The notes under the pieces were generated by a model that did not search any database, was not told the DNA's origin, and saw nothing but the letters and a program-made list of their open reading frames with translations. From the IMG/VR virus record IMGVR_UViG_3300035698_015265, positions 1 to 22,547 of that record: a stretch of 22,547 bases of DNA; one strand, given 5' to 3'. The translations under genes and the position numbers were made by a program. This DNA comes from a virus. Position 1 is the stretch's first letter. The number at the start of each line of letters is the position of its first letter. Positions 590-14,504 of the stretch are shown here, one piece after another.

Positions 590-613
590 TATATAGTCAA
601 TAAAAATAATAAT

Positions 614-649
614 AAAAAAAGCTATATATAAATTATATAGCTTTTTTTT
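614..649 (+). terminator. Rho-independent terminator (potentially bidirectional)
   Basis: GCTATATA (621-628) pairs with TATATAGC (634-641) around a 5-nt loop. The stem is extended by an A7 tract (614-620) matching the T-run (642-649). The U-tract after the stem gives termination on the + strand; the A-tract before it could terminate transcription arriving from the other side. Confidence 0.85.
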
Positions 650-804
650 ATTATCTAATTACATTTAATTATACTAACATTAATTATATATAATATATTG
701 CATTGTATGGATTGATATAGCTATACAATAGGTTATATTATTATATGGATAGATATATATAACTATATTACTATTGTATTGTAACGCATTGTAACGCTTG
801 AAAC

Positions 805-831
805 ATTGAAGCTATTGAAGCTATTGAAGCA
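805..831 (+). repeat. Tandem repeat, 9 bp x 3 (ATTGAAGCT)
   Basis: Units at 805-813, 814-822 and 823-831; the last ends in A instead of T. Just upstream, the word ATTGTAACGC occurs twice in tandem (779-798). Confidence 0.85.
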
Positions 832-847
832 TTACATATAATATAGC

Positions 848-871
848 ATTGTATCATTGTATCATTGTATC
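848..871 (+). repeat. Tandem repeat, 8 bp x 3 (ATTGTATC)
   Basis: Three exact units at 848-855, 856-863 and 864-871. They are followed by CAGTAGACT, which recurs near 931-939 after another ATTGTAT, so a larger duplicated segment may be present. Confidence 0.85.
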
Positions 872-946
872 AGTAGACTGATATATAATATCGGTATTGT
901 ATAGAATGGTATTATATAATGGTATTGTATCAGTAGACTATTGTAT

Positions 947-986
947 AACCTTATAACCTTATAACCTTATAACCTTATAACCTTAT
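947..986 (+). repeat. Tandem repeat, 8 bp x 5 (AACCTTAT)
   Basis: Five exact head-to-tail copies. This is the longest perfect array in the gene-free region, typical of replication slippage or an iterated binding site. Confidence 0.9.
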
Positions 987-1088
987 ACGTTTACTAGATA
1001 GGATTGTAACGATATAATTATATATAGATAGATGTTTATAACGCTATTAGCTATATAGCTATTACATGGACGTATAACAACGCTATAT

Positions 1089-1145
1089 GATACATACATG
1101 ATATATACATGATAGATACATACATGATAGATACATACATGATAG
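1089..1145 (+). repeat. Tandem repeat, 15-bp unit GATAGATACATACAT with shorter variants
   Basis: Two full 15-bp units (1111-1125, 1126-1140) are preceded by 11-bp variants (GATACATACAT at 1089, GATATATACAT at 1100) and followed by GATAG. Confidence 0.85.
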
Positions 1146-1376
1146 ACTAAAAATTTTTATATAGTTGCTTGCTGCATGCATACCATATAAAAAAAAATAG
1201 GATATAAAAATAATATAATTAGTTGAATAGTAAAAAATTTCATGTGAAATTAAATGATCTTAAAATAATATACTAGACTTTATTAGTATGATATAATTGT
1301 ATCATGTGTAATTAATTGAAATAGTTATATTAATTAATAGTTAATATATAATGGATCTTATTTTATCAATGTGAAT

Positions 1377-1401
1377 ATTGTGTATACTGAACATACACAA
1401 T
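1377..1401. promoter_or_regulatory. 9-bp inverted repeat with 7-nt spacer
   Basis: ATTGTGTAT (1377-1385) and its exact complement ATACACAAT (1393-1401) flank the spacer ACTGAAC. It lies 25 nt before a promoter-like sequence at 1427-1455, so it could be an operator or an extruded hairpin. The 7-nt spacer matches the other hairpins listed at 3422-3687 and 8961-9060. Confidence 0.55.
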
Positions 1402-1426
1402 TGTATAAAATAAAAAAATTGACAAA

Positions 1427-1455
1427 GTGACATCAAAAAAAATTTTTGTTATAAT
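1427..1455 (+). promoter_or_regulatory. Promoter-like sequence with no gene downstream
   Basis: GTGACA (1427-1432), 17 nt, then perfect TATAAT (1450-1455). No open reading frame follows, so if active it would make an untranslated RNA running toward the C-rich region. The AT-rich background makes chance matches possible. Confidence 0.35.
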
Positions 1456-1615
1456 CGAAATAGAACAGCTAATATATCATATGTAAAAAAATTACATTAT
1501 ATCATTGGTAAAAAAATAATAAAAAATGATCTTATTTCAATAAATCCATATCAAATATCATATCAAATTATATATTGCTTATTTGCTCACATTCTAGCAT
1601 CTGAAACACTCTAAA

Positions 1616-1647
1616 AAATCATATCAAATCATATCAAATCATATCAA
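1616..1647 (+). repeat. Tandem repeat, 10 bp x ~3 (ATATCAAATC)
   Basis: Units at 1621-1630 and 1631-1640, a partial at 1641-1647 and a partial before 1621. The related word ATATCAAAT occurs twice at about 1550-1570, so this array has degenerate neighbours. Confidence 0.8.
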
Positions 1648-1797
1648 TTAACATAAAAACTAACATATTATAACTATAATATACCACTTTTTATATGCTA
1701 AAATAGCACTGTACATTAATACAATTTTTTTAATGGATGCCCGTACTTTACAATATTTCAATGGACTTTTTACAGAAAATAACAATGAGTACACTAA

Positions 1798-1889
1798 CTC
1801 ACACCTCTACCCAACTCACAACTCACAGCTAACTCACAACTAACTCACACATATTAACTCACATATACTCACCCAACTCACGTACTCAC
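1798..1889 (+). repeat. Iteron-like cluster of nine CTCAC words
   Basis: CTCAC begins at 1798, 1815, 1822, 1833, 1844, 1858, 1868, 1877 and 1885, mostly as AACTCACA. Intervals are 17, 7, 11, 11, 14, 10, 9 and 8 nt, averaging close to one helical turn. Further copies occur at about 2424 and 2446. Irregular spacing separates it from the slippage arrays nearby. An iterated protein-binding site, such as a replication origin, is one reading; biased composition alone is another. Confidence 0.5.
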
Positions 1890-2155
1890 AGATATCATAA
1901 TCATCACAAATATATACCTACCCCAACATTACAATTTAACTCTCAATAGTCACATAAATACCCCTTTATCACAATGTGCCCCTACATACATTACTCGACT
2001 ATCTGTCATACTACCTATCCCAATACCTATCCTTTTATAATTGGTACTTACATATTTATCACATACCTATCATATATTTATCATATACTTATCTCACCCA
2101 CCTCTTATATTGCCTTATTATATTATAACATAATGTTATTTTAATAATCCAATAG

Positions 2156-2358
2156 TCTACTTTCATAACTTACTTTTATACTTACTCTTACATTTTCCTC
2201 ACCTTCCTCTTAATTAAACACTTAATTAAACACCTAAACATCTCAACTATTCTCAATCATTCTCAACCATTTTTAATACATAATCAATCATTTTTAATAT
2301 ACTTTCAATCATTTTTAATATATAATTAAACATATTCATACATTTTTATATACAACTT
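2156..2358. other. 203-nt tract with no G on the + strand
   Basis: Between the G at 2155 and the G at 2359 the + strand contains only A, C and T, with C still common. The surrounding 1690-2520 has only a few G per 60 nt. A transcript of the - strand would contain no C here and would be nearly unstructured. No gene explains the bias. Confidence 0.85.
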
Positions 2359-3012
2359 GATCTAACTTAATTTAATATATATTAACATAATAATTAACAT
2401 AATATATTATAAAGTTACATCAACTCACACTTATTTACATATACACTCACACTTATTTAAGATCCATTACATGCTCCTTAAACTTAATCTAATATAATCC
2501 AATATATTTATCAAACCTACTGTTTAGTGTACTTAAGAGCTCATTCTCAATAATCTATATTTAATCTAACCTAATCTATTTCTAATCTAACATACCTCTT
2601 AATCTAACTTAAGTAAACTTGAATAAGTATGTTATATTAATTCTATTGTAATTTCTTTTACTACTTTGTCCTATTGTTTTATTGTAACAATACTATTATA
2701 ATTATCGACTAATCCATTGTTTTAAAATATCACTATAACATAAATATACTATAACTCTTATTATTAATGTACTGTTTAGATATGTTTGGATACTATTTAG
2801 ATATATAATAAGTAATTAATAAAGTATGAAATAATAATGAAATAATACTATAAACTAACATAATAATTAACATAATAATTAATATAATACTTTTGTTTAT
2901 TATACTACTTGAATAATAGTTTAAGATAATATATAATATGAAATTTTAATAATCTACCGACTAGTAGTTTATAATAGCCTATACCCCTCTTAATATCTAT
3001 TGTACTATATAT

Positions 3013-3045
3013 GTTGTACATGAGTTGTATATGAGTTGTACATGA
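3013..3045 (+). repeat. Tandem repeat, 11 bp x 3 (GTTGTACATGA)
   Basis: Units at 3013-3023, 3024-3034 (GTTGTATATGA, one change) and 3035-3045. The outer two contain the palindrome TGTACA. Confidence 0.85.
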
Positions 3046-3067
3046 CTCTGTCTATGCCTAAGTAACC

Positions 3068-3134
3068 CTTTACTCATGGCTTTGCCATTCATAAAGCTTG
3101 TAAAGTAAAAGGAACAAGTTCCTATTCACTTTAC
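3068..3134 (+). promoter_or_regulatory. Two mutually exclusive hairpins (switch-like element)
   Basis: CTTTAC (3068-3073) can pair with GTAAAG (3100-3105), enclosing an inner stem ATGGC-TTT-GCCAT (3076-3088). The same segment, GTAAAGT (3100-3106), can instead pair with ACTTTAC (3128-3134), enclosing AGGAAC/GTTCCT (3110-3115/3118-3123). The two folds share one strand, as in attenuators and riboswitches. No known riboswitch class is recognised and no gene starts directly after it. Confidence 0.45.
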
Positions 3135-3320
3135 CTATATCTACTTATAGCTATATACTTATAATTATAATATTTTTAAACCTATTGCTTTTATGTCCCT
3201 TTTATAGTATAATTGTCTTAAGTTAATTTATATTATATATTATTATATTATATTTTATATTTCATATCTTATATCATTCAATTTCATACTTAATTACCTA
3301 TTAATCATATTGTATCTAAA

Positions 3321-3350
3321 TTAATGTTAATTAATGTTAATTAATGTTAA
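3321..3350 (+). repeat. Tandem repeat, 10 bp x 3 (TTAATGTTAA)
   Basis: Three exact units, followed by TT. It ends 5 nt before the first TTTTAGCAG word of the leader module (3356). Confidence 0.9.
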
Positions 3351-3421
3351 TTGTATTTTAGCAGTTTTATATATATACTTATATAAAGAAGAAGAATAAC
3401 TCAGGTGTGTACTGTAGGGGT

Positions 3422-3447
3422 AAATATACTGTAAACTAGTGTTATTT
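3422..3447. promoter_or_regulatory. Palindrome family copy 1 (7-nt loop)
   Basis: AAATA-T-ACT pairs with AGT-G-TATTT (one bulged T) around the loop GTAAACT (3431-3437). It shares the core ACTGTAARCTAGT and the flank TTATTTTGTA with copy 2. Confidence 0.55.
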
Positions 3448-3530
3448 TGTACATGGTATAAATTGGCAAAAGTAGTGTTTTAGCAGTTCTGCTTTTTAAG
3501 TAGCTAGTAGGGGTAGATTGATAAAAGTTA

Positions 3531-3559
3531 AAAATAACACTGTAAGCTAGTATTATTTT
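3531..3559. promoter_or_regulatory. Palindrome family copy 2 (7-nt loop)
   Basis: AAAATAA pairs with TTATTTT, then one C/A mismatch, then ACT with AGT, around the loop GTAAGCT (3542-3548). Confidence 0.65.
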
Positions 3560-3589
3560 GTATCCTTCGATATGTCTCTGAAAACAGCG

Positions 3590-3614
3590 TTTTAGCAGAA
3601 TGGAACTGCTAAAA
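3590..3614. promoter_or_regulatory. 9-bp hairpin TTTTAGCAG / CTGCTAAAA (7-nt loop)
   Basis: Perfect stem around AATGGAA (3599-3605). Its left arm is the third copy of the TTTTAGCAG word. The right arm is followed by TTTCATT, so a weak terminator or attenuator is possible. Confidence 0.6.
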
Positions 3615-3666
3615 TTTCATTAAAAACACGTGTGTGTGTTTGTTTTATCTTATATATGTTCTTGTC

Positions 3667-3687
3667 TGTTCGTGTTTTATACGAACA
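3667..3687. promoter_or_regulatory. Inverted repeat TGTTCGT / ACGAACA, possible operator
   Basis: Perfect 7-bp arms with the 7-nt spacer GTTTTAT, about 95 nt before the helicase-like gene. The spacing differs from the Bacillus LexA box (GAAC-N4-GTTC), so a different repressor or a structural role is more likely. Confidence 0.5.
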
Positions 3688-3780
3688 AGAGTGAATATTA
3701 ATAAATAATAGTAAATAATTGTAAGTAGTAAATAGATAGTGAATGAATAAGGAATAGATAGGGAATGGATAGGGGATTAA

Positions 3781-11293: not shown

Positions 11294-12349
11294 ATGAGAC
11301 AAGATGAATACGATAAGCTTTCGTTGGAAAAAGAGAAGGTAGAAAAAAGACTTAATGAAATATTAGATGGAGAAATTGTATATTGTAGGATGTGTAGAAA
11401 ACATAAAAGAGTAAAAGACTTTTATGAACATATAAATATTATTGTAGATATGAATGGCAAAATGTCAATATGTGCGTCTTGTCTTAATGGTTATTGTAAC
11501 GATATATTAGAAAAATATCCAGATAATTATAGAAAAGCAATATATGAAACTTGTAAGATTGCCAACATTGTTTTTAATGAAGAATCTATGGTTTATGTTG
11601 AAAGTCATATTTTAAGCTACGAACAAAGAGGGGTTAATATTAATAAACCCTTTGGTATCTATAAAAGCAAATTGTCATCAACTGCTAGAAAGAATGGAGT
11701 AATACCTCATACTTTTGTTGGAGAGGCTGTTTTAAACATAGGCATGCCAAATAGTGTAAAGGTAGAAGACGAATTAGTTGATGATAAGAATTTAGTTATT
11801 CCAAAAGAAAAGGTTTCTGAAAATGGAGTTACATGGGGAAGTGATTATGCTCCTGAAGACATTAAAGAATTAGATGAGATTTATAAAGACTATATTGTTT
11901 ATGAAAGAAATACTCCAGTGCAAAAAATGCTTCATGAAAATATAGCTAAAGCAACTCTAAGGATGAATGGATTAGCAAAGAATGGTAAAATAGATGATTA
12001 TACAAAAGCTTATGGTATATTGTCAAAATTACTAAATGATGGTAATTTAAAACCTGTGCAAGAAACTGGAGATAACGCCACAGAACAAACTTGCTATGGA
12101 GTTTTTATAAAAAAGATAGAAAATCAAAGACCTATATCTGAACCAGATGAAGATTTTAAAGACGTAGACAATATCAAATGGTTAATAAGAGTATATTTTA
12201 TTGGACACCTTTGCAAAGTTTTAAATATAAAAAATAAATATTCTAAAGAATATGAAGCAGAGATGGAAAATAATAAAATAATTTTAGAAGAAAATTTTGA
12301 AGATATAGATCCTGAAGAAATGTTTTCTACTGAACAAGAGAGCCAATAA
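11294..12349 (+). CDS. Zinc-finger protein in the small-terminase position
   Basis: 351 aa from the ATG at 11294, chosen because GTGGTGA (11282-11288) is then a well-placed ribosome binding site; the in-frame GTGs at 11282/11285 are the alternative. The N-terminus is a short coiled coil (KLSLEKEKVEKRLNEIL), then a Cys4 finger C31-x2-C34...C60-x2-C63 (YCRMC and CASC). The middle has no recognised domain; the C-terminus is helical and ends very acidic. It overlaps the large terminase start by one base (TAATG), typical of translational coupling. Position argues for a DNA-recognising small terminase subunit, with the finger as a possible DNA contact. No sequence similarity to known TerS is claimed. 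Confidence 0.6.
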   Translation: MRQDEYDKLSLEKEKVEKRLNEILDGEIVYCRMCRKHKRVKDFYEHINIIVDMNGKMSICASCLNGYCNDILEKYPDNYRKAIYETCKIANIVFNEESMVYVESHILSYEQRGVNINKPFGIYKSKLSSTARKNGVIPHTFVGEAVLNIGMPNSVKVEDELVDDKNLVIPKEKVSENGVTWGSDYAPEDIKELDEIYKDYIVYERNTPVQKMLHENIAKATLRMNGLAKNGKIDDYTKAYGILSKLLNDGNLKPVQETGDNATEQTCYGVFIKKIENQRPISEPDEDFKDVDNIKWLIRVYFIGHLCKVLNIKNKYSKEYEAEMENNKIILEENFEDIDPEEMFSTEQESQ

Positions 12350-12621
12350 TGGCTGGCTTTAGTAATTTTCAAGTTAGAAGAAATAAATATACAAATGGAA
12401 CAGATTTATTTAAAAAAGGCGTAAATTATAATAAGTTTAATGATATTAGCCTACAGAATGAAAAGTTAGTAGAAGGGATAGATGAATGGACTGGGTTTTA
12501 TAGAAATCATCCACACAGGTTTGCAAAAGACTATCTAGGAATAACCTTAAAGCTTTTTCAAATAATAATAATAAATGCAATGTTCATGTTTCCGAATATT
12601 GTATATCTTGCCGCTAGGGGT
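12349..12621 (+). CDS. terL: Large terminase subunit, exon 1 (N-terminal 91 aa)
   Basis: The ATG overlaps the stop of the preceding gene. The exon encodes residues 1-91 and ends within the ATPase P-loop: ...YLAARG. Reading on, TAA follows immediately (12622-12624), so unspliced mRNA would give a useless 91-aa fragment. The upstream stretch (WTGFYRNHPHRFAKDYLGITLKLFQ) has the look of the N-terminal adaptor region before the P-loop in phage terminases. Joining to 12900 gives AARGQGKTYLTAV, a normal terminase Walker A, in the same frame with no codon split. Confidence 0.88.
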
Positions 12622-12899
12622 TAACAAACTGGCTCTCCTATATAGAAATGTATAGGTAATAAATTGGGGAAAATCGGTAAACGCTGAAATGCCAATACCG
12701 AGGTAAATATTGTTGTAAAAAACAATGTCACCGTAACGCATAGATACGAAACTATTTTAAATAGAATATAAGTATCCACGAGTCTCCGACACCTAAATTT
12801 GTTTTTATATAAGAAGATAAGGTGAAAATATATGCCGAACTAATGTGAATAGAAACCATTAGAACTAAAGGATAAAAAGCCTTTAGGATAACAAAATTG
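12622..12899 (+). ncRNA. Group I self-splicing intron in the terminase gene
   Basis: A 278-nt segment whose removal restores the terminase frame. A full group I fold can be drawn by hand. P1: exon GGGGT (12617-12621) with GCTCT (12632-12636), placing a U-G pair at the 5' splice site. P2: CCTATA/TATAGG (12637/12651). P3: AATAAAT (12658-12664) with ATTTGTT (12797-12803). P4: TCGGT/ACCGA (12674/12697). P6: GGT/ACC (12702/12730), extended by P6a ATTGTT/AACAAT (12709/12721). An extra hairpin GATAC/GTATC lies at 12743/12772. P7: CACCT (12790-12794) with AGGTG (12820-12824). P9-type hairpins: CTAATG/CATTAG (12840/12857) and CTAAAGG/CCTTTAG (12865/12880). The intron ends in G (12899), the expected terminal guanosine. 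It carries no homing endonuclease gene. P5, P8 and P10 are weak in this drawing. Confidence 0.9.
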
Positions 12900-14504
12900 C
12901 AAGGCAAGACATACTTAACAGCGGTATTTTGTGTAATTTATTGCATATTATACCCTGGTGTAAAAATTGTTGTAGCTTCTGGAACTAAAGGTCAAGCAAT
13001 GAAAATAGTTACAGAAAAGATTCCAGAAATTAAAGCTCTTGAAAATAGTTGTCTTGGTAGAGAGATAGAAAAAGAACAAAAAAGTTTAAATTCTACTGAG
13101 CCAAATGTACAGTTTCACAATACTAGTACTATAACTATAGTTACAGCAAGTAATAATGCAAGGTCTCATCGTGCGAACATTTTAATATTAGATGAGTTTA
13201 GAATGATTGATAACAATATCATAAAGGCTGTATTAAGAAGATTCAAAGCAGCCCCAAGACAACCAGGATATTTATCGAAACCAGAATATAAAAATAACAA
13301 AAAGCTTATAGAAAGAAATAGAGAAATATTGCTTTCTAGTGCATACTATAAGTATCATTGGGCATGGACAAAAGTTAAAGCTGTTTTTCATGGCATGATT
13401 ACTAAATCAAAAAGTTATTTTATATGTGCGTTACCATATCAACTTTCACTTAAAGAAAATTTATTGGTAGAGCAAGATATAAAAGACGAAATAGAAGAAG
13501 AGGGTTTTGATCCCATTCTATGGGAAATGGAAATGGAATGTTTGTTCATAGGAGAATCTGATAGTGCTTTTTATAAGTTCACAGATTTTTTATCTAATAG
13601 AACAATAAATTTACCAATAATACCTACAGATAAAAATCTTATTCCAACTCATTTAAAAAATAGAAAAAAAGAAACAGGAGAAACAAGGCTTTTATGTTGT
13701 GACTTTGCTACTAGAGAAGGAGACGAAAATGATGCGTCTGTCTATTCTTTAATAAGTATCTTTCCATTGGGAAATAAAATAGCTTATTATAAAAGAAAGT
13801 TAGAATATATGGAATCTATGGTTGGTGGACATACAAATACACAAGTTGAGAAATTAAAATATCTTTTTGAAAATTTGTCTTGTGATTACCTAATTTTAGA
13901 TGAGGCTAACGCAGGTACTAGTATAATGGATATGCTTTCTCTTCCAACAGCTAGTTTAACTGATGATAGTATTGAGTATGCGCCATACTGGGCTGTAGAA
14001 GATGATATAAATAAAGAGTTATGTAAGAATACAACTAAAGAAGAAGTTAATGATCGTTTTAGAAAAGAGTATTCTCATTACGAAGATTCTTCTAAAAAAG
14101 TTATGTATATGATACATGGAACAGAGTTATTGAATAGCGAAATCGCAAAAGCATTAAAAAGTGCATTAATAAGTAAAAGATTATCAATGTTAATAAATGA
14201 AAAAGATGCAGAAGTTTATTTGACCAAGAAGTATGCAAAAAAATATATGGATTTACAAAATATTGATAAGTCAATGCTTCTGTCTATATATGCACAAGTT
14301 ACTGGATTAGTAAATGAAACGGTAATGCTTGAAAATAAAAGCGATCCAAGTGATCCTTTGTTAAAACTTAAAACTATAGGTAAAAAAAGAAAAGATAGAT
14401 TTAGTTCAGTTTCTTATGGTAACTATGTTATTAGTTTAATGGAAAGGAAGCTACGTTCTAAATCAGATGACATTGACTGGGAGTCATTTTATATAAGGGG
14501 ATAA
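12900..14504 (+). CDS. terL: Large terminase subunit, exon 2 (ATPase core and nuclease)
   Basis: Encodes residues 92-625 of the spliced protein, completing Walker A (RGQGKT, 90-95). Walker B is ILILDEF with D189 and catalytic-type E190. The C-terminal nuclease domain shows the RNase H-like acidic residues: LLCCDFATREGD (D359) and YLILDEANAG (D425). The enzyme pumps DNA into the prohead using ATP and cuts the concatemer. The in-frame TTG at 12897 is the last three bases of the intron, has no ribosome binding site, and is unlikely to be a real start. The portal gene follows after 48 nt. The 625-aa total is within the upper normal range for the family. Confidence 0.9.
   Translation, partial: QGKTYLTAVFCVIYCILYPGVKIVVASGTKGQAMKIVTEKIPEIKALENSCLGREIEKEQKSLNSTEPNVQFHNTSTITIVTASNNARSHRANILILDEFRMIDNNIIKAVLRRFKAAPRQPGYLSKPEYKNNKKLIERNREILLSSAYYKYHWAWTKVKAVFHGMITKSKSYFICALPYQLSLKENLLVEQDIKDEIEEEGFDPILWEMEMECLFIGESDSAFYKFTDFLSNRTINLPIIPTDKNLIPTHLKNRKKETGETRLLCCDFATREGDENDASVYSLISIFPLGNKIAYYKRKLEYMESMVGGHTNTQVEKLKYLFENLSCDYLILDEANAGTSIMDMLSLPTASLTDDSIEYAPYWAVEDDINKELCKNTTKEEVNDRFRKEYSHYEDSSKKVMYMIHGTELLNSEIAKALKSALISKRLSMLINEKDAEVYLTKKYAKKYMDLQNIDKSMLLSIYAQVTGLVNETVMLENKSDPSDPLLKLKTIGKKRKDRFSSVSYGNYVISLMERKLRSKSDDIDWESFYIRG

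Follow-up and report, generated by a model that had tools for sequence, protein, structure and literature searches.

A compact, endonuclease-free group I intron in the Walker A motif of a terminase gene from an SPbeta-like phage

The large terminase gene in the stretch of phage DNA analysed here (the window, 22,547 nt in full) is almost certainly interrupted, within its Walker A codons, by an IA-type group I intron that carries no endonuclease gene and would splice itself from the transcript. This reading draws on the position of the insert, the reading frame, covariation, homology and alleles found at the same site. Terminase group I introns, some of them spliced in vivo, have already been published, and the window gives a further terminase intron, a compact one in the SPbeta-like phages.

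The interrupted terminase gene

From its sequence, the interrupted gene is the large terminase of an SPbeta-like phage, and is arranged as follows:

12349 to 12621, + strand: terminase large subunit (yonF-like), exon 1; 91 codons, C-terminal ...AARG
12622 to 12899, + strand: group I intron, 278 nt, without an ORF; first three bases an in-frame TAA, last base G
12900 to 14504, + strand: terminase large subunit, exon 2; 534 codons plus stop, N-terminal QGKT

Exon 1, which is homologous to the N-terminus of SPbeta yonF, finishes with the codons GCC GCT AGG GGT (AARG) and exon 2 opens with CAA GGC AAG ACA (QGKT). A single profile, PHROG 15503, spans both exons, matching exon 1 over profile positions 11–95 and restarting at 97 in exon 2. 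The second exon also matches Pfam PF03237 Terminase_6N together with PHROGs 26582, 15503 and 2, and is 44–46% identical to SPbeta-like terminases. Excision of exactly 278 nt gives AARG/QGKT in a joined frame that remains open for 625 codons and encodes a normal terminase, with 43% identity to SPbeta yonF across 623 residues, i.e. over the full length. The genes around it are arranged as in SPbeta, yonJ-yonG-yonF-yonE-yonD, where an exonuclease comes first and yonE is the portal, and the structural genes surrounding the terminase are intact.

The P-loop is contiguous in yonF and in 106 of the 110 related terminase loci, so that the site is usually empty. A preliminary description of this DNA had placed the intron within the Walker A codons, with a stop right after AARG and an exact P-loop upon removal of 278 nt. 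All of this is borne out by the AARG/QGKT split, by the in-frame TAA at 12622–12624 and by the joined frame, which reads AARGQGKT.

The 5' splice site falls after GGU (U12621) and the intron finishes at G12899, preceded by the conserved sequence GATAACAAAATTG. No other frame-keeping cut has both a U before the 5' splice site and a G at the intron end, and the exact boundaries and terminal G originally proposed can be retained, as can the claim that the intron lacks an internal endonuclease, there being no ORF in 12622–12899. Related DNA was found by blastn in 40 phage records, with matches that stop at 12899 or a few nt away.

The conserved intron 3' end at 12884–12899 (AGGATAACAAAATTG) resembles a ribosome-binding site followed by a TTG that is in frame with exon 2, and gene callers can therefore mistake exon 2 for a separate gene. 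Intron-split terminases are annotated as two proteins, and the terminase is thus easily overlooked.

Alleles at the same site and mobility

The window's site is also occupied in two other loci. In the metagenomic phage L196 (IMGVR_UViG_3300001544_000063) the split, AARG/QGKS, is at the identical position and the intron, of about 1.1 kb, contains a LAGLIDADG ORF (PF14528, PF00961), which starts shortly past the splice site and extends across the internal guide sequence into P2, thereby filling L1 and overlapping the P1 3' strand and P2. In L178, CRG/LGKT is split by a 256-nt intron without an ORF, which scores 48.1 bits in Rfam (E = 3.1e-9). This SPbeta-like terminase (L178:4438–6459) is broken by three group I introns, of which the one at the window's site is the first and the other two score 105.7 and 85.5 bits. 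The window, L196 and L178 introns all start with an in-frame UAA. In a Butyrivibrio prophage (L128) and in Limosilactobacillus ingluviei (L111) the intron lies 1 nt further 3', within the next codon, and the L128 copy is 79.5% identical to that of the window across aligned bases.

There is hence a natural series at one site, from empty (106 loci) to an endonuclease-free intron (window, L178) and a LAGLIDADG intron (L196), which allows endonuclease gain and loss, and the attraction of introns to ATP-binding codons, to be studied. On this sequence comparison, the window intron belongs to a mobile element as its endonuclease-free allele, and the Walker A position that it occupies is a recurrent one. 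The existence of the LAGLIDADG-bearing allele at the identical site sharpens the earlier suggestion that the intron is either minimal and non-mobile or dependent on an endonuclease in trans: the window copy has probably lost its LAGLIDADG gene, or is the gene-free form, and may move only via co-conversion or a trans-acting endonuclease. Of the proteins encoded in the window, 19 were scanned with Pfam and/or PHROGs and no endonuclease domain was found in them, the window being a 22.5-kb genome fragment. This counts against, and the L196 allele and a LAGLIDADG intron two codons away in phage phi127 count for, an addition to the best explanation that is possible but on the unlikely side, namely that the window intron can still move with the help of an endonuclease, supplied from another part of the phage genome or by a co-infecting phage with the L196-type allele.

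Two observations concern individual loci. At L111:3758–4001 the frame-keeping cut has a C, not a U, before the 5' splice site, with UGGGC pairing to GCCCA, and the splice-site pair of P1 may here be a naturally occurring C-G. At L119:2123 the terminase P-loop reads AARG-stop-GKT, where an in-frame TAG stands in place of the Gln codon and more in-frame stops follow; TAG is probably recoded in this Lachnospiraceae (pro)phage.

Class and structure of the intron

The segment 12622–12899 is, by its sequence features, a complete group I intron. Nothing in the window matches Rfam at the gathering cut-off, and sequence relatives were therefore used instead. The covariance search proposed in the preliminary description does align RF00028 with the intron over the model from end to end (E = 0.0047), but at 20.7 bits the match falls short of the gathering cut-off of 50. 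That cut-off serves curation and does not define the structure, and none of the 8 loci with related introns reaches it either. A profile built from 17 relatives, with the window left out, matches 12662–12898 at E = 1.8e-42, and this, along with the covariation described below and the score of the same-site L178 intron, upholds the original group I assignment. An intein is ruled out, as stops are present in all frames of the insert; an assembly error or frameshift is likewise ruled out for a 278-nt insert with covarying structure. Neither a tRNA nor a tmRNA was found when sought in the window.

The helices of the intron are:

12617 to 12621, + strand: P1 5' strand (exon GGGGU), pairing with 12632–12636; read from the sequence
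12622 to 12631, + strand: L1 loop, 10 nt; site of the LAGLIDADG ORF in L196
12632 to 12636, + strand: P1 3' strand, the internal guide sequence (GCUCU); from the sequence and the L196 comparison
12637 to 12656, + strand: P2 hairpin CCUAUAUA-GAAA-UGUAUAGG; from the fold
12664 to 12670 and 12783 to 12789, + strand: P3 5' and 3' strands; 98.4% of cells paired, double changes at 5 of 7 pairs
12674 to 12701, + strand: P4 (12674–12679 with 12696–12701), enclosing P5; 99% paired
12683 to 12684 with 12691 to 12692, + strand: P5, inside P4; 2 bp, weak
12702 to 12732, + strand: P6 (12702–12704 with 12730–12732) and P6a (12707–12714 with 12721–12728); double changes at 9 of 11 pairs
12738 to 12742 and 12831 to 12835, + strand: P7 (guanosine-binding) 5' and 3' strands; 100% paired, double changes at 2 of 5 pairs
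12743 to 12747 with 12772 to 12776, + strand: P7.1; 100% paired, double changes at 4 of 5 pairs
12752 to 12756 with 12760 to 12764, + strand: P7.2, window-specific; 35% paired across the alignment
12790 to 12824, + strand: P8 (12790–12794 with 12820–12824); 100% paired
12840 to 12862, + strand: P9 hairpin; 100% paired
12865 to 12886, + strand: P9.1 hairpin, then the conserved 3' end; 99.2% paired, double changes at 7 of 7 pairs

The U.G at the 5' splice site is formed by U12621 and G12632. P2 (12637–12644 with 12649–12656, closed by the GAAA loop) is readable directly from the sequence and is also found in L128, and the P10 pairing is short, at no more than 2 bp. The unconstrained fold of the intron has a z of -4.4, with none of 100 shuffles equally stable.

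Covariation was scored in an alignment of 18 related introns for P3, P4, P5, P6, P6a, P7, P7.1, P7.2, P8, P9 and P9.1. Standard pairs make up 93.2% of pair cells and 42 of the 59 pairs are changed on both sides, with 216 double-change cells observed against 61 in shuffles. The scored structure came from the window's own fold and the aligned sequences are related to one another, which introduces some bias in its favour; when the partners are slid as a control that retains relatedness, pairing falls to 32–43%, and the double changes far exceed that control. P3, P4, P6, P6a, P7, P7.1, P8, P9 and P9.1 covary, so that both pseudoknot helices, P3 and P7, are supported, while P7.2 is present in the window's fold and unsupported across the alignment. 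The helices that had at first simply been drawn are consequently present beyond chance.

The intron appears IA2-like, that is, IA-type and most similar to IA2. Of the features looked for in that subgroup, a P7.1/P7.2 extension lying between P7 and the P3 3' strand and a P9.1, P7.1 and P9.1 covary and P7.2 occurs only in the window's fold. One survey describes the IA2 subgroup itself as heterogeneous (PMC11878797).

Proposed splicing of the terminase transcript

In group I splicing a guanosine bound in P7 attacks the 5' splice site, which here would be the bond following U12621. The exon end thus freed then attacks behind the final intron base, here G12899. The intron RNA is expected to fold into P3–P8 and P4–P6 domains, with P1 offering the 5' splice site, with its U.G, to the guanosine held in P7. 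Two transesterifications would free the 278 nt and ligate AARG to QGKT, allowing the full terminase to be made. The in-frame UAA that forms the first intron codon would halt ribosomes at the unspliced junction, such that unspliced RNA would give only a 91-residue piece without GKT. We infer, on sound grounds, that packaging and the GKT-containing ATPase would depend on splicing.

It is very improbable that the intron is catalytically dead and the gene split, with exon 2 translated alone from the TTG at 12897 and the two polypeptides assembling afterwards. This TTG, at the end of the intron, is in frame with exon 2, has an AGGA about 9 nt upstream and begins a listed open reading frame, but the GATAACA...TTG string is the conserved 3' end of the intron. 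Moreover, in L128 and L111 the junction falls inside a codon, with no in-frame start, and both exons are still kept; all core helices covary; and exon 2 alone would be without the strand preceding the P-loop. Slighter still is the chance that the phage genome is dead or defective and the intron in it only a decayed remnant with no function left, as could be imagined from the missing endonuclease and from the long non-coding stretch (590–3780) of this metagenomic fragment, because the exons are open through 625 codons, the surrounding structural genes are intact and the core pairs are unbroken.

The stretch at 590–3780 (about 3.2 kb) is unusual in a phage genome, being very AT-rich and having no credible ORF on either strand. 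Short motifs are repeated in tandem within it, among them ATAACCTT and TACATGATAGA.

Relation to known terminase introns

A review of bacterial group I introns counts terminases among the genes that these elements commonly occupy in phages (PMC3984707). In a partial literature search no description was found of SPbeta-like terminases with a group I intron at the Walker A codons. Like the window, Lactobacillus phage LL-H (Mikkonen and Alatossava 1995, as cited in PMC4299906) and Bacillus phage Moonbeam, with two such introns (PMC4299906), have group I introns in the terminase of a phage of Gram-positive bacteria, a likeness at the level of gene and host; the Moonbeam introns differ in having endonuclease genes. 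The survey cited above reports that the TerL group I introns of phiAGATE and SIOphi (Bastillevirinae) are spliced in vivo, that of SIOphi also in vitro, and that most of the introns surveyed are IA-type (PMC11878797), but these phages are not SPbeta-like. The Jug phages similarly have short terL group I introns, of about 206 nt, with endonucleases that are mostly stand-alone, and according to metatranscriptomes their split terL is respliced (PMC12363816); unlike the window, they are huge phages with predicted Bacteroides or Phocaeicola hosts. Inteins occupy the TerL ATPase domain (P-loop and Walker B) in mycobacteriophages (PMC5050341), which makes them comparable as selfish splicing elements recurrent in that domain, except that they act by protein rather than RNA splicing.

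Closer relatives are found within the same intron family. Mammaliicoccus phage phi127 (L003) shares with the window an SPbeta-like terminase, the Walker A location, the intron family and the 3' end GATAACAAAATTG, yet it has a LAGLIDADG gene and its site is 6 nt further 3' (SRGLG/KS). Staphylococcus phages PMBT8 (L012) and IMEP5 (L021) also have this intron family in the Walker A of the terminase, the PMBT8 copy again without an endonuclease and the IMEP5 copy with a GIY-YIG gene, but they belong to other terminase families and their site, between G and K, is two codons further 3'. An Rfam 'drum' RNA lies at L003:209–326, amid tRNA genes upstream of the phi127 terminase.

Nucleotide-binding motifs as intron sites

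The G/K[ST] site, two codons 3' of that in the window, is used in phi127, L121, PMBT8, IMEP5 and the RecD-like helicase of Bacillus phage PJN02, and in L015, an apparent DnaB-like helicase whose 5' exon was not located, the intron precedes K[ST]. Homologous introns thereby lie within 6 nt of one another in ATPases both orthologous and unrelated, namely SPbeta-like and staphylococcal terminases and RecD-like and DnaB-like helicases. The 1-nt shift that separates the window and L196 from L128 and L111, all of them orthologous terminases, could point to several insertions in place of one inherited site. For this intron lineage, Walker A codons might then serve as a landing site common to several protein families, where the intron inserts repeatedly, guided by its own P1 recognition of a GGU/GGGU-type end and not by strict homing, although this proposal is doubtful.

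A strict 3'-end pattern for same-site introns gave no match in IMG/VR, because the last intron bases vary among relatives, and a looser family pattern did find them. Among the matches listed, at least 120 family introns have enough downstream sequence, and in 12 of these a K-S/T pair of codons directly follows the candidate intron end, whereas 0–5 introns (about 1.5 on average) have such a pair at any one of the eleven codon positions that follow. The same listed matches include two same-site terminases and one /GKT. With candidate sites judged from the 3' side, this Walker A enrichment is a lead.

At least 8 further introns among the matches listed have a Walker B-like stretch at the start of the 3' exon. 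Introns directly upstream of such stretches (e.g. LVFFDESGF) are seen in L138, L157, L172, L181, L182, L195, L199 and L214, and Walker B-like stretches appear to be a second intron hotspot. Those of L138, L157 and L182 are in SPbeta-like terminases.
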